The notes: generated by a model not told the origin, from the sequence alone. A stretch of 64,000 nt of DNA from Halapricum desulfuricans (GCF_017094505.1 NZ_CP064787.1:2418001-2482000), one strand, 5' to 3'; numbered from the stretch's first letter, positions 28,887-34,979 are shown. Program-made: numbers and translations.

Positions 28887-29534
28887 CTAATCGAGCGCGG
28901 AGATGACCTCATCGACGAACTGCTCGGGCGGGAGCCCGCCGGTGAACTGCCCGGAGTCGTTGACGTTGATCTGCGGGACGCCGCGGACGCCGTACTCCTG
29001 GGAGAGCTCCATGAACTCCTGGGACTCGATGCCGTCGGCAGTAATCTGGTCGTTCTCGATCGCCATCTGGTGAGCGGCCTGAACCGCTCGCGGGCAGTGC
29101 GGACAGGTCGGCGTCACGAACACCTTGATGTTGACCGGCTGGTCGATGTTCTGGACTTTCTCGCGCACGTCGTCGGGGAGGTCCGTCTCGCCCGGGCCCT
29201 GCGCGACCGCGATGAGCCCCTGCAGGAAGGCGCTGAACTCCTGGCCCGACGGGATGCCGAAGTACCGGACGCCGGTGACGCCGTCGCGAGTGATGACAGT
29301 GACGGGCGCGCCGTCGTACTTGGTCGCGCCGAGTTCCTCGGCCAGCGGGTCGTCCATGTCGTGGGTCTCGACGACGACGTCGTCGCTCTCGCCCTCGACG
29401 TCTTCGTACAGGTCGAGCGTCTCGTCGCAATACTGACAGCCGTCCTCGGTGAAGACGTGGACGGTGACTGTCTCTTCGAGGGAACTCAGGAGTTCGTTGA
29501 CTTGACTGCGGTCGTCTGCGGAAAGGACTGACAT
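28887..29534 (-). CDS. Protein disulfide oxidoreductase with two thioredoxin folds
   Basis: 215 residues from MSVLSADDRSQVNELL (an upstream in-frame ATG at 29585 is less likely). It is the archaeal PDO type: two thioredoxin units, each with an active-site CxxC, CQYC at about residue 34 and CPHC at about residue 145. The second cis-Pro region is GVRGVPQINVNDSGQF. It makes or rearranges disulfides in the cytoplasm, or serves as a glutaredoxin-like electron carrier. No thioredoxin reductase is next to it. Confidence 0.92.
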   Translation of the reverse strand: MSVLSADDRSQVNELLSSLEETVTVHVFTEDGCQYCDETLDLYEDVEGESDDVVVETHDMDDPLAEELGATKYDGAPVTVITRDGVTGVRYFGIPSGQEFSAFLQGLIAVAQGPGETDLPDDVREKVQNIDQPVNIKVFVTPTCPHCPRAVQAAHQMAIENDQITADGIESQEFMELSQEYGVRGVPQINVNDSGQFTGGLPPEQFVDEVISALD

Positions 29535-29622
29535 TCTGACTTGACGTTGGCACTCTGACTGTGTTATATTTTGCGTTTTGCCCAATACTCCGAAACGCGC
29601 GGATACAGCCCCTGAGGCTGCG

Positions 29623-30738
29623 TTACTCCGGCGTGAACGCGTGGCCCCGAAGCACCATCCGGGTGGTGAGTGCCGCAGTGACGACCCAGACGACTGCGAG
29701 CAGGCCCGTCACGGCGGCGAGCGTGGCGGTGAATCCGCCGATACCGAGGAAGCCGCCGAGCGACCCCGCCGAGATAGCGAAGGCCCCGAGCGGGAAGGTG
29801 TAAGCCCACCAGGTAAAGAAGAACGGGTGCGTCCGGCGAGTGACGTAGTGGGCCACGAGTCCGGCGGTCAGCACGAACCACCAGGCCGAGAAGCCCCACA
29901 TCACCAGCGCGAGGAGCTTCAGGCCCGGCACCAGCGGTTCGACTGCCAGCCCCAGCCCGACGCCGGCCTCGAGCGCGTGAGCGAGTTTCACGAGGGCGAT
30001 CGTGAGCACGGCCGTCGGAGCCAGCCCGATGACGAACGTCGGCGCGAGCTTCTCACGCGGGAGGCTCTCGTAGGCGTAGCGATGGAGCACGATCGAACCG
30101 AAAAACAGGAACATGAACGACCCGATCCCCAGCGCGATCATCGAGACGACGAAGACGAACTGTCCGGTCGCCGTCCCGGCGAGATGTCCGGCGACGAGAT
30201 CGAAGCCCAACAGCGGAATGACGAGGTGACTCACCGGCGGGATGTACCAGGCGAAGACGCCGTGTTCGGTCCCGATCTCGTCGTTGGTGAACATGATCGT
30301 CACGACGACCAGCCCGAACCCGAAGATGCCGGCGCTTCCGAGGACGAACAGCCCCGTCAGTAGCGGTTCGAGCACACTCGACGGGACGATATCACCCATC
30401 GTGCGAGCGATCCCGAGACCGAGGACGATCAGCGTGATCGGCATCGTCGGGAAGAACTGACTCCGGATGGGATGGGTGAGGTCCGTTCGGACTCGATGTG
30501 GGTACAGCCACATCCGCGCCAGCCACGGCAGCGTGTACGTGACCGTCATCACGGCCGTCAGCGCGACGAACAACTGCGCGAACGGGAGCAACGCGTCGAT
30601 CCCGGACTGGGCGGCGAGCAACCCGAGCGCGACGCCGAGCGCGCCGGTCCCCATCGTCGATCCGAACCACTGCGGACCGAAGAACTCGACCGTGTTTGCG
30701 ACTCTCGCTCTCGTCGATGTCGAAGTGACCTGACTCAT
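29623..30738 (-). CDS. TDT family (tellurite resistance/dicarboxylate, SLAC1-like) transporter
   Basis: 371 residues with ten hydrophobic segments. The start FGPQWFGSTMGTGALGVALG matches the TDT family opening helix, and TFPLGAFAISAGSLGGFLG near the end is its second signature. Relatives move anions such as malate, sulfite or tellurite-related ions; the substrate here is not known. It is divergent from the lipoyl-LPD region with a 285-bp gap. Confidence 0.85.
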   Translation of the reverse strand: MSQVTSTSTRARVANTVEFFGPQWFGSTMGTGALGVALGLLAAQSGIDALLPFAQLFVALTAVMTVTYTLPWLARMWLYPHRVRTDLTHPIRSQFFPTMPITLIVLGLGIARTMGDIVPSSVLEPLLTGLFVLGSAGIFGFGLVVVTIMFTNDEIGTEHGVFAWYIPPVSHLVIPLLGFDLVAGHLAGTATGQFVFVVSMIALGIGSFMFLFFGSIVLHRYAYESLPREKLAPTFVIGLAPTAVLTIALVKLAHALEAGVGLGLAVEPLVPGLKLLALVMWGFSAWWFVLTAGLVAHYVTRRTHPFFFTWWAYTFPLGAFAISAGSLGGFLGIGGFTATLAAVTGLLAVVWVVTAALTTRMVLRGHAFTPE

Positions 30739-31023: not shown

Positions 31024-32859
31024 ATGACGATGGAATTCGAAATGCCGGAATGCGACGACGGGAGCGACGAGGGGAAACTCGTCGCCTGGCACGTCGAACC
31101 CGGTGACACGGTTCAGTCCGGCGACCGGATCGCCGACATCGAGACCGACAAGTCGGTCATCGAGGTCACCGCCCCCGGCGAGATGGTCGTGACCGAACTG
31201 CTTCACGAGGTCGGCGACGACATCCCGGTCGGCGAACCGCTCGTCGCCTACGACGAGACCGAGGGCGAGAGCGATGAATCGTCGGCGGACGAGGGGCCGG
31301 TGTCTGCCGTCTCCCGCGTGGACGACGAGAGCGAGGACGCTGGGCGCGGGACAGACGAAGGCGGGGAGGAACCGACGTCCGCCGTCTCGCGAGTCGACGA
31401 CGGCGACGAGGGACCGACTGCGGCGGTCTCGCAAGTCGAGAGTGAGTCGGTCGCCCCGGACGAGGCCGACGACGCGACGGAGGTGCTGATCGTCGGAGCC
31501 GGGCCCGGCGGGTACGTCGCGGCGATCCGGGCGGCACAGCTCGGGCTGGACGTGACGCTCGTCGAACGGGACGCCTACGGCGGGACCTGTCTCAACTACG
31601 GCTGCATCCCCTCGAAGGCGCTCATCCACGGGAGCGACGTCGCATACGAGGCGCGCAACGCGGGGGACCTCGGGATCACTGCCGACGTCGAGGTCGACTT
31701 CGCGAAACTCGTCGACTGGAAGGACGACGTGGTCGACCAGCTCACCGGGGGCGTCGAGAACCTCTGTCGGGCGGCCGGCGCGACGCTGATCGAGGGGACC
31801 GCACGCTTCGTCGACGATCACGTCGCCGAAATTGAGACCGACGACGGGGCGTCGACGCTCGCCTTCGAGAACGCGATCGTTGCGACCGGCAGCCGCGTCA
31901 TCGAGATCCCCGGCTTCGAGCCGGACGGAGAGTACGTCCTCGACTCGCGAGACGCGCTCGATCTCGAGGAGATCCCCGACTCGCTGGTCGTCATCGGCGC
32001 GGGGTACATCGGGATGGAACTGTCGACGGTCTTTGCGAAACTCGGGACCGACGTCACGGTCGTCGAGATGCTCGAGGACGTGCTGCCCATGTACGAGAGC
32101 GACGTCTCTCGGATCGTTCGCGAGGAAGCCGCCGATCTGGGGATCGAGTTCCGATTCGGCGAGCTCGCCGCCGACTGGGAACGGGACGGCGACGGCGTCG
32201 TCGTCACGACCGAGGACGAGGACGGCGCGACGGCGGAACTGGCGGCCGACGCGGTGCTGGCCGTTCCCGGACGGGAGCCGGTCACCGACACGGTCGGCCT
32301 CGAGGCGCTGGGGATCGAACCCGACGAGGACGGTTTCGTCCCGACAGACGCGCAGGGGCGGACCGCCCGCGATCACGTCTTCGCGATCGGCGACGTGGCC
32401 GGCGAACCCATGCTCGCCCACAAGGCCAGCCACGAGGGGGAGGTCGCCGCGGCCGCGGTCGCCGGCGAGCCCGCCGCGCTGGACCACAGAGCGATGCCGG
32501 CGGCGGTCTTCACTGACCCCGAGGTCGCGACGGTCGGCCTGACCGAGGCTGACGCCGAGGAAGCGGGCTACACGACGGCGGTCGGACAGATGCCCCTGAG
32601 CGGGAACGGCCGCGCCCTGACTGTCGAATCCCCCGAAGGGTTCGTCCGGATCGTCGCCGACGCGCCGACCGGAACCGTCCTCGGCGCACAGATCGTCGCG
32701 CCCGAAGCCTCGGAACTGATCGGCGAAGTCGCGCTGGCGGTCGAACAGCGTCTCACCCTCGAGGAACTCGCCGGAACGGTCCACACCCATCCGACGCTCT
32801 CGGAAGCGATCATGGAAGCCGCCGCCGACGCTGCCGGCGAGGCTATCCACACGCACTGA
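31024..32859 (+). CDS. lpdA: Lipoyl domain-dihydrolipoamide dehydrogenase fusion
   Basis: 611 residues from the ATG at 31024 (a second Met two codons later). Residues 1-77 are a lipoyl domain with the lipoylation motif ETDKSVIEV (Lys43). An acidic linker (about 78-155) holds three PxSAVSRVDD-like units (92-101, 117-126, 131-140). The rest is a full E3 flavoenzyme: GAGPGGYVAAIRAAQLG (FAD), GGTCLNYGCIPSK (redox disulfide), GAGYIGMELSTVFAKLG (NAD), IGDVAGEPMLAHKA, and the C-terminal HTHPTLSEAI with the His-Glu pair. E3 oxidises dihydrolipoamide with NAD. No E1 or E2 gene is in the window; OsmC, lipoate ligase and an AhpD-like protein follow. Confidence 0.93.
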   Translation: MTMEFEMPECDDGSDEGKLVAWHVEPGDTVQSGDRIADIETDKSVIEVTAPGEMVVTELLHEVGDDIPVGEPLVAYDETEGESDESSADEGPVSAVSRVDDESEDAGRGTDEGGEEPTSAVSRVDDGDEGPTAAVSQVESESVAPDEADDATEVLIVGAGPGGYVAAIRAAQLGLDVTLVERDAYGGTCLNYGCIPSKALIHGSDVAYEARNAGDLGITADVEVDFAKLVDWKDDVVDQLTGGVENLCRAAGATLIEGTARFVDDHVAEIETDDGASTLAFENAIVATGSRVIEIPGFEPDGEYVLDSRDALDLEEIPDSLVVIGAGYIGMELSTVFAKLGTDVTVVEMLEDVLPMYESDVSRIVREEAADLGIEFRFGELAADWERDGDGVVVTTEDEDGATAELAADAVLAVPGREPVTDTVGLEALGIEPDEDGFVPTDAQGRTARDHVFAIGDVAGEPMLAHKASHEGEVAAAAVAGEPAALDHRAMPAAVFTDPEVATVGLTEADAEEAGYTTAVGQMPLSGNGRALTVESPEGFVRIVADAPTGTVLGAQIVAPEASELIGEVALAVEQRLTLEELAGTVHTHPTLSEAIMEAAADAAGEAIHTH

Positions 32860-32940
32860 TAGTGGCTGCTGTAACGATCTATCGGTGTGCCCGCACGCAG
32901 TCGTGCGGTCAACCCGGAACAGACGTACAGCAACCACTGT
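32859..32940 (+). repeat. 82-bp palindromic element copy A
   Basis: It begins at the last base of the lpdA stop codon (TGA 32857-32859). The ends are ATAGTGGCTGCTGTA and TACAGCAACCACTGT, inverted repeats with two or three mismatches. The centre holds the hairpin CCGCACG-CAGT-CGTGCGG. It lies between lpdA and the osmC promoter and may act as a terminator or processing structure as well as being a repeat. Confidence 0.75.
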
Positions 32941-33025
32941 GATACTCGCCGATTATCCACGGTTTTTGATCGATTTTCTCCTCCAATACACGACTTCGGA
33001 GAATTCGATTCCACAAGCCCTTTTA

Positions 33026-33052
33026 CTGTATAGTGAGGACTGCACAATACAG
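33026..33052. promoter_or_regulatory. Operator-like inverted repeat upstream of osmC
   Basis: CTGTATAGTG (33026-33035) and CACAATACAG (33043-33052) are 10-bp arms matching at 9 of 10 positions with a 7-bp spacer. The site ends 2 bases before the ATG at 33055 and covers the place where a TATA box would be for a leaderless mRNA (TGTATAG). A bound dimer would block transcription. The regulator is unknown. Confidence 0.6.
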
Positions 33053-33054
33053 AC

Positions 33055-33459
33055 ATGTCCGATATCAGTCTGACGACGACGAACACGAGCGGCTTCGACA
33101 CGGAAAGCGTCATCGGCGATTTCGCGGTCGGTATCGATCCGATGACCGAGACCGGCCCCGACCCGAACTCGGTACTGGTCGCCGATTACGCGGCGTGTTT
33201 CCTGCCCGCGGTTCGGATGGGCGCACGCAAGTCCGGTTACGACCTCGGCAAGCTGGAGATCGAGGCCGAGGCCGACCTGACCGACGAAGATAACCTCGAA
33301 TCGATCAGCTTCACGCTGAAAGTCGAGGGTGACGTCGAGAACCCCGAGGAACTCGTCGAACTGGGCGAGCAGTTCTGTCACGTTCACACGGCGCTTCGCG
33401 AGGAACTGCACGCCGACGTCACCGTCGAGACCGAGGCCTTCGCGACGGCGTCGGCGTAA
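33055..33459 (+). CDS. osmC: OsmC/Ohr family thiol peroxidase-like protein
   Basis: 134 residues. The family pattern has a first reactive Cys in VADYAACFLPAVRMGARKSG (residue about 48) and a second Cys in LGEQFCHVHTAL (about 107), the usual pair for reducing organic hydroperoxides. A mid-protein ISFTLKVEGDV beta segment is present. In bacteria Ohr is re-reduced by lipoylated proteins and lipoamide dehydrogenase; the fusion gene upstream would be a natural partner. The operator-like inverted repeat overlaps its promoter. Confidence 0.92.
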   Translation: MSDISLTTTNTSGFDTESVIGDFAVGIDPMTETGPDPNSVLVADYAACFLPAVRMGARKSGYDLGKLEIEAEADLTDEDNLESISFTLKVEGDVENPEELVELGEQFCHVHTALREELHADVTVETEAFATASA

Positions 33460-33515
33460 CGACTGCGAGCGCGGAGACCGACACGCAGAAACACGCTCCT
33501 CCCCTTTCGAGTTCT

Positions 33516-33785
33516 ATGGACCACAGTGGCTCAGTCAAGGTGCCGGACGGCAAACTCGTCGAGGTGGCCGTCTCCGGAACTGATCGGATCGAATCCGCTC
33601 GCATCACGGGTGACTTCTTCCTCGAACCGCCCGAGGCGCGAGCCGAACTCGAGGCCGCGATCGAGGGCCACTCCTTCGAGGTCGACCGCGAGGCGCTCGT
33701 GGCGTCGATTGAGAACGTCGACGCACGGCTCATCGGGTTCGAGGCCGGCGATCTGGCCGGGGCGACGCTGGAGGCGATCGAATGA
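33516..33785 (+). CDS. lplB: Lipoate-protein ligase C-terminal domain protein (LplB-like)
   Basis: 89 residues, starting MDHSGSVKVPDGKLVEVAVS. It matches the small accessory domain of bipartite archaeal lipoate ligase (KVPDGKLVEVAV, then RITGDFFLEPPEARAELEAA). In Thermoplasma the separate large and small chains are both needed to adenylate lipoate. Its stop overlaps the lplA start by 4 bases (ATGA), so the two chains are co-translated in near equal amounts. Confidence 0.85.
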   Translation: MDHSGSVKVPDGKLVEVAVSGTDRIESARITGDFFLEPPEARAELEAAIEGHSFEVDREALVASIENVDARLIGFEAGDLAGATLEAIE

Positions 33786-34528
33786 ACCTCCGCGTCGTCG
33801 ACACCGGCCGGTACAGCGAGCCGGTCCAGCAGGCGCTGGAACGCGTTCTGACCGACCGGCTGGCGGCGGGCGAGATCGAACCGACGCTGCGGTTCTGGTA
33901 CCGCGACGGCCCCGCGGTCCCGCTGGGTCGCTTCCAGGCCTACGCCGACGAGGTCGCGACCGACTACGTCGAGGAGCACGACATCGACGTCGTCCGCCGG
34001 ATCACCGGCGGCGGGGCGATGTACGTCGAACCGGGCGCGGTGATCACCTACTCGCTGTATCTCCCCCGCGAGGCCGTCTCGGGCGACGTCGAGGCCAGCT
34101 ACGCCGAACTCGATCAGTTCACGCTCGACGCGCTCCGGGACCTCGGACTGGAGGTCCGCCACGAGCCGTTGAACGACATCGCTCACCCGGAGGGCAAGAT
34201 CGGCGGGGCCGCCCAGCTCCGGACGGACGACGCCGTGCTCCACCACACGACGATGAGCTACGAACTGGACATCGCGGAGATGCTGCGCGTGCTCCGGATC
34301 GGCGAGCAGAAGGTCTCGGACAAGGCGATCACGTCTGCCGAAAAGCGCGTCGCCCGTATCAGCGACCACATCGATGCCGACCGTAGCGAGGTCATCGACG
34401 CGATGATCGACGCGGCGGCCGACCGGTACGACGTGTTCGAGGGTGGACTGTCCGAAACGGTGCTCACGGAGGCACGAGCGCTCGCCGACGAACAGTTCGA
34501 CACTGACGAGTGGAACCGACAGCTGTAG
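33782..34528 (+). CDS. lplA: Lipoate-protein ligase A, catalytic chain
   Basis: 248 residues of the LplA catalytic domain. Motifs are RRITGGGAMYVEPGAV (RRxxGGG), and HPEGKIGGAAQLRTDD with the catalytic Lys in KIGG. It activates lipoate with ATP and attaches it to a Lys of a lipoyl domain. Length is normal for the stand-alone archaeal form whose C-terminal domain is a separate gene (lplB, overlapping). The only lipoyl domain in the window is on the lpdA fusion. Confidence 0.92.
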   Translation: MNLRVVDTGRYSEPVQQALERVLTDRLAAGEIEPTLRFWYRDGPAVPLGRFQAYADEVATDYVEEHDIDVVRRITGGGAMYVEPGAVITYSLYLPREAVSGDVEASYAELDQFTLDALRDLGLEVRHEPLNDIAHPEGKIGGAAQLRTDDAVLHHTTMSYELDIAEMLRVLRIGEQKVSDKAITSAEKRVARISDHIDADRSEVIDAMIDAAADRYDVFEGGLSETVLTEARALADEQFDTDEWNRQL

Positions 34529-34640
34529 GAACGCCGGTCGAGGCGTGTCGGTCGATCACGCCCTCGATAGAAGCAATTCTTGCACTGAAAACCATTTATA
34601 AATACGTTTATTGTGCTGGCGGCCATTCGATAAACCGGAT

Positions 34641-34979
34641 ATGGCATCTCCAGAAGACGAAGTCGCGGAGAAAAAACAGACCGTACAGGAATTCGCCGGG
34701 GAAGCACGATCCGTCGAGTCGTTCCTGGGATTCGTCCATTCAGCCGAGGAAGACGGCGCGCTGGACGCGAAAACGAAGGAACTGATGTCGCTCGCACTGG
34801 GCGTCACGCTGCGCTGTGAGGACTGCATCGTCTGGCACCTCGACGCCGCGCTGCAAGCGGGCGCGACCGAAGACGAAGTCGTCGAAGCGCTCGAGATCGC
34901 GGTCGTCATGGGCGGCGGCCCGGCACTGATGTACGCCACCGAAGCCTACGAGACGCTGCAGGCGTTCGATCTCGACTGA
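34641..34979 (+). CDS. AhpD-like carboxymuconolactone decarboxylase-family protein
   Basis: 112 residues from MASPEDEVAEKKQTVQEF; the frame is open 30 bases further up to an ATG at 34611. It has the AhpD active-site pattern RCEDCIVWHLDAAL (CxxC followed by His, residues about 59-65) within the all-helical fold. Bacterial AhpD takes electrons from a lipoylated subunit and lipoamide dehydrogenase and gives them to a peroxiredoxin. Its own promoter has TTTATAAAT about 50 bases before the ATG. Confidence 0.88.
   Translation: MASPEDEVAEKKQTVQEFAGEARSVESFLGFVHSAEEDGALDAKTKELMSLALGVTLRCEDCIVWHLDAALQAGATEDEVVEALEIAVVMGGGPALMYATEAYETLQAFDLD

Follow-up and report, generated by a model that had tools for sequence, protein, structure and literature searches.

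What use has an archaeon for a lipoyl arm, an enzyme to recharge it and a ligase to load it, when no acyltransferase (E2) of a 2-oxoacid dehydrogenase can be found in its genome? This question is raised by a locus of Halapricum desulfuricans within a 64,000-nt stretch of DNA (GCF_017094505.1, NZ_CP064787.1:2418001-2482000; the whole stretch is referred to here as the window), where five genes on the plus strand encode a fusion of a lipoyl domain to dihydrolipoamide dehydrogenase (E3), an OsmC-fold protein, the LplB and LplA subunits of a split lipoate-protein ligase, and an AhpD-like protein. Lipoate is usually regarded as serving 2-oxoacid dehydrogenases and glycine cleavage as a cofactor, and its antioxidant roles as borrowed from these complexes. 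Here the arm and its recharger form a single chain that has a ligase of its own, and in some archaea lipoate appears to be kept solely for this set of genes. We consider it reasonably probable that the genes constitute a dedicated NADH-to-lipoamide disulfide-reductase module, whose partner proteins likely function in the detoxification of peroxides or thiol oxidants. The results support a lipoamide module dedicated to a task outside 2-oxoacid dehydrogenase and glycine cleavage. As the module travels with small thiol-disulfide proteins and is the sole detectable use of lipoate in some species, its role seems to lie in redox protection and not in central metabolism.

Lipoyl-E3 fusion and adjacent ligase

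Profiles from Pfam and NCBIfam, together with the sequence, placed all five genes at the positions given in the earlier note, on the single 2.94-Mb contig of the H. desulfuricans genome. The fusion gene spans 31024..32859 (+), a start backed by relatives that align from the same first residue. Its N-terminal lipoyl domain (about 31027-31245) matched Biotin_lipoyl (PF00364; 8.4e-14, 51.6 bits against a cut-off of 22.1) and contains the predicted lipoylation site, Lys43 of the ETDKS motif (codon 31150..31152). The E3 part matched Pyr_redox_2 (4e-69) and TIGR01350 (526.1 bits against a cut-off of 408.8), and possesses both the CLNYGC redox disulfide and the HTHPTLSE motif with its catalytic His. 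An alignment of 19 fusions showed that Lys43, the CxxxxC redox disulfide motif and HTHPTLSE are kept in every one. With both profiles above cut-off and the E3 motifs intact, the claim that one chain joins a lipoyl domain to a complete E3 holds.

The ligase genes follow on the same strand, LplB at 33516..33785 and LplA at 33782..34528, and overlap by 4 nt (33782-33785) as had been noted. LplB, the small subunit, scored slightly below cut-off (NF053749; 54.9 bits against 65). LplA, the catalytic subunit, contains RRITGGGAMY and matched PF21948 (2e-44, 152 bits), and its RRxTGGG signature is invariant in the alignment. The two subunits adjoin each other, and lie next to the fusion, in 18 of the 19 genomes that encode it. 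A search of the window genome found no lipA, although LipS1/LipS2 synthases were not searched for; because no LipA is encoded, the lipoate is probably scavenged.

Distribution among Halobacteria

A class-wide survey of 391 Halobacteria genomes found the full-length fusion in 19, including that of the window; most of the remaining 372 possess an unfused E3, with best identities of ~60-67%. All 18 other fusions adjoin OsmC and/or LplAB. In 14 genomes (Halapricum, Natrialbaceae-type, g40 and Halohasta) the fusion is followed by an OsmC of the window's subfamily, and in Halapricum the AhpD-like gene is also adjacent; the same cluster occurs on contig JAOPKD010000029.1 of Halapricum hydrolyticum. 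In Halorhabdus and its sister genus, OsmC is missing and the AhpD-like gene precedes the fusion, with AhpD, E3, LplB and LplA spaced by 8-38 nt. The genes and their arrangement reappear in other genera, even though the order varies by lineage, so the cluster is not a product of chance.

The AhpD-like gene was found in 15 of 19 fusion genomes versus 11 of 372 others (Fisher p 6e-17) and LplA in 18 of 19 versus 12 of 372 (Fisher p 3e-22), counts and p values that ignore genome relatedness. This is one of several points that weigh against a dedicated module. One fusion genome (G320) is without LplAB of the module's type, and in Natrialbaceae-type and Halohasta fusion genomes the AhpD-like gene is unlinked or absent. 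The 11 fusion-free genomes with an AhpD-like orthologue (54-61% identity) overturned the complete absence seen in an early sample (0/40). The window genome itself carries gcvT and gcvH, such that the module is not exclusive there. Lastly, in alignments the first Arg of the OsmC-fold protein comes no earlier than residue 54, and Asn38 takes the position of the Ohr Glu.

A tree of E3 sequences contained two well-supported fused groups on an unresolved backbone, one consisting of Halapricum, Natrialbaceae-type genomes and Halohasta, and the other of Halorhabdus and its sister genus. The tree did not show that the fusion arose only once, given the two groups, the backbone and an unfused sequence (G066) within one of the groups. 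The first group spans more than one family, which would fit a transfer of the whole cluster, and in Natribaculum the cluster is located on plasmids. Within the fused clade, the unfused E3 of G066 (L150:8268-9785) is placed beside the Halohasta fusion; OsmC, LplAB and AhpD-like genes are missing from its surroundings, and it may have lost the lipoyl domain.

The ligase also occurs apart from the fusion. In fusion-free genomes encoding LplAB (Halobacterium, Halocatena, Nanohaloarchaea, G001, G093 and G129), OsmC, the AhpD-like gene and fused E3 were not adjacent, and the module was not found within ~8 kb of any bacterial LplA relative. The nanohaloarchaeal LplAB relatives (L081, L082, L083 and L084) share 53-58% identity with the window LplA, and in Nanohaloarchaea SG9 a second ligase-like gene lies beside LplAB, with sucC/sucD-like genes nearby.

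Lipoyl proteins available to the module

The earlier note had remarked that neither the dehydrogenase component (E1) nor E2 of a 2-oxoacid dehydrogenase is near the locus. This was true but understated, as PF00198 had no match in the entire window genome. The E2 profile was likewise without a match in three of the four other Halapricum genomes and in all fusion genomes of Halorhabdus and its sister genus. The sole Biotin_lipoyl match above cut-off in the window genome was the fusion itself; GcvH, which scored below cut-off, was the only other lipoyl protein detected, which leaves LplAB with two clients. This E3 and LplAB probably have a second task in Halapricum, that of glycine cleavage, with the fusion doubling as L-protein.

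The gcvT and gcvH genes also raise the alternative that the locus is simply housekeeping, i.e., that the fusion is the glycine cleavage L-protein, GcvH is what LplAB lipoylates, and the lipoyl domain of the fusion was inherited as a passenger. In keeping with this, the fusion is the window genome's only close relative of the typical haloarchaeal Lpd, and similar fusions exist in bacteria. The lipoyl-E3 enzymes of Neisseria work with pyruvate dehydrogenase. Neisseria p64K/Lpd (PDB 5u25 and 1ojt) shares the lipoyl-linker-E3 domain order of the window fusion; however, with the exception of Halapricum G165, the fusion genomes of Halapricum and Halorhabdus showed no pyruvate dehydrogenase-like complex. 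A housekeeping role is unlikely for three reasons: the fusion is unlinked to the gcv genes in the window genome, Natrialbaceae-type genomes carry the module beside 2-oxoacid dehydrogenases of their own, and Halorhabdus and its sister genus keep the whole module, Lys43 included, with no GcvH or E2 found. These last genomes contradict L-protein as the sole function.

In the five fusion genomes of Halorhabdus and the sister genus, searches found no E2, GcvH or lipA, and the single Biotin_lipoyl domain was that of the fusion. No lipoyl domain, E2, GcvH, lipA, LplA or AhpD-like gene was found in three fusion-free Halorhabdus genomes. Since the fusion holds the only lipoyl domain detected and neither E2 nor GcvH is found, the arm and its ligase are kept for a non-classical use in these archaea, where the arm's most plausible partner is the AhpD-like protein encoded next to it. 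For this lineage we lean slightly toward a specific form of the module, in which LplAB would place scavenged lipoate on its own reductase for the sole purpose of driving the AhpD-like protein, wholly independently of both glycine cleavage and central carbon metabolism, and in which the genes would be gained or lost as a block. The description of the locus as self-contained is supported. In Halorhabdus and its sister genus it is the only lipoyl system detected, so that its arm cannot be there for E2 or GcvH; in the window genome it is not exclusive, as GcvH needs LplAB and E3 as well. Such a module offers a minimal system for testing lipoamide-driven redox defence, and it could explain the persistence of ligase genes in archaea without E2.

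Candidate partners of the lipoyl arm

The AhpD-like gene (34641..34979, +) starts at ATG 34641 and not at TTG 34611, as relatives align from that Met. Its product matched PF02627 (7e-21) and exceeded the cut-off for the ahpD core domain (TIGR00778), but did not reach that for the AhpD subfamily (TIGR00777; 15.9 bits against 191.95). The CxxC and His described earlier were confirmed, and a Glu is kept as well: E47, C59, C62 and H66 are invariant among relatives, in a spacing that we take to match the catalytic Glu/CxxC/His of Mycobacterium tuberculosis AhpD. Profile matches in the PDB included 1gu9 and 5dik, and a structure model matched Lpg0406 and RclX, the latter a protein that protects against hypochlorous acid (PMC7950407). 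By analogy, a peroxidase or downstream reductase is the likeliest role.

The OsmC-fold protein (33055..33459, +; PF02566, 4e-14) proved less straightforward. Both reactive Cys that had been claimed are present (C48 and C108) and are invariant across relatives. The designation of OsmC peroxidase is not supported, as the catalytic Arg and Glu (Arg19 and Glu51 in Xylella Ohr; PMC5962072) are missing and NCBIfam models for Ohr/OsmC peroxidases scored far below cut-off. Absence of these two residues is characteristic of YhfA-type proteins, an exception among the peroxidases of the family (PMC8945050, PMC4069020). The structure model was of modest confidence (predicted local distance difference test score, pLDDT, 72), with a fold match at the family level only. 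Because the protein is YhfA-like and lacks Arg and Glu, peroxidase activity should not be assumed, and on sequence grounds this identity is doubtful. Thus, of the dedicated lipoamide peroxidase system originally proposed, the dedicated and conserved module is supported, and its peroxidase function is putative.

We infer lipoylation and the reduction of partners and, from known bacterial systems, the direction of electron flow and the physiological oxidant. Lipoate, probably scavenged, would be attached by LplAB to Lys43 in the lipoyl domain of the fusion. The lipoyl disulfide would then be reduced with NADH by the E3 part of that chain, and the dihydrolipoyl arm would in turn reduce small two-cysteine partner proteins. 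The partner would differ by lineage, being AhpD-like in Halorhabdus-type clusters, a YhfA-like OsmC in Natrinema-type clusters and both in Halapricum, and the likeliest use would be to detoxify peroxides or other thiol oxidants by reduction. Trichomonas H- and L-proteins are separate chains, whereas the module has arm and reductase in one. As cited in PMC10332631, Trichomonas OsmC occurs with an incomplete glycine decarboxylase (Nyvltova, 2016), which resembles the module in pairing OsmC with a lipoyl protein but no working metabolic complex. Lipoylated proteins together with Lpd reduce AhpD as well as Ohr/OsmC (PMC8945050). The mycobacterial AhpD/AhpC-SucB-Lpd peroxidase (Bryk, 2002, in PMC8945050) shares NADH, Lpd, a lipoyl arm and the AhpD Glu/CxxC/His with the module, but there a metabolic complex provides the arm, in the form of its E2, while here the arm is fused to the reductase, has its own ligase and occurs in several hosts without E2. 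With the lipoyl-dependent Ohr/OsmC peroxidases (Cussiol, 2010, in PMC8945050), the module's OsmC has in common the fold, the two Cys and the association with lipoyl/Lpd; it differs in having neither the catalytic Arg nor the catalytic Glu, and its resemblance is to the YhfA class (PMC4069020).

Alternatively, the OsmC and AhpD-like proteins could be no partners of the arm; their genes would then be stress or accessory genes that share regulation and are carried along together by plasmids. The plasmid location in Natribaculum, the lineage-dependent gene order and the larger gaps in Halapricum are compatible with this. We consider it very unlikely, however, because both partner types recur beside the fusion in independent arrangements, because the Halorhabdus lipoyl arm has no other detected partner, and because OsmC domains are fused to E2 chains elsewhere. 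In several Natrialbaceae-type haloarchaea, an E2 with lipoyl, E3-binding and acyltransferase domains carries a C-terminal OsmC domain (L056:6249-8168, +; L057:6061-8127, -; L058:4889-6706, +; domains of the first two confirmed by Pfam). These genes adjoin E1-type genes and an AcoX-like gene; an OsmC match inside an E2 frame was found in 6 of 59 genomes searched, and no description of such a fusion was found in the literature searched. Found in other haloarchaea, these gene fusions support a tie between OsmC domains and lipoyl chains independently of the module, and the pairing of OsmC and AhpD-like proteins with the lipoyl-E3 fusion is supported as non-random.

Between the lipoyl and E3 parts of the window fusion lies an acidic linker (31295-31440) with three P[TV]xAVS[RQ]V motifs. 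In the more general form P[TV]xAV[ST][RQ]V, the motif occurs in up to three copies among the fusions of the window, L039, L041, L042 and L049. It is confined to lineages with OsmC in the cluster, being absent from Halorhabdus-type fusions, and is possibly a docking motif. In two Natrinema fusion genomes, the unlinked AhpD-like copy is next to a gene that, judged from its sequence, encodes an ABC binding protein of the zinc/manganese type, and an IS605-type transposase gene lies near the AhpD-like copy of Natribaculum.

Upstream of the fusion, a divergent gene (29623..30738, -; PF03595) encodes a SLAC1/TDT-family anion transporter. Members of this family were found near the fusion in 11 of 19 loci (Halapricum, Natribaculum-type and Halorhabdus), in the same divergent position in Halapricum and Natribaculum-type genomes. 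This neighbor suggests a third alternative, sulfur chemistry, in which the arm would carry or reduce persulfide, polysulfide, sulfite or another oxyanion, SLAC1/TDT would act as exporter, and the OsmC and AhpD-like proteins would handle sulfur or disulfide intermediates instead of peroxides. An OsmC without peroxidase residues accords with it, as does the lipoate-binding protein of bacterial Hdr-like sulfur oxidation, which likewise functions outside the classical complexes with a dedicated ligase beside it (PMC6067878). We assign this alternative a low probability: SLAC1 is missing from the vicinity of most Natrialbaceae-type fusions and the count of 11 of 19 has no base rate to be compared with, the AhpD-like protein retains the AhpD catalytic set, and no hdr-like or other sulfur genes were recognized beside the module. 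The module also differs from the Hdr-like system in having its carrier fused to E3.

In the window, gaps of 195 nt between E3 and OsmC and of 112 nt between LplA and the AhpD-like gene, the latter containing TTTATA (34595..34600, +), suggest that the cluster is probably not a single transcript and that more than one is likely. TTTATA is a weak candidate TATA box for a separate AhpD-like transcript, as ~3 chance matches are expected in the window, and a sigma-70-style promoter scan is unsuited to archaea. Beyond the transporter gene lies one for a protein disulfide oxidoreductase with two thioredoxin folds (28887..29585, -; TIGR02187, above cut-off), which is linked to the module in Halapricum only.

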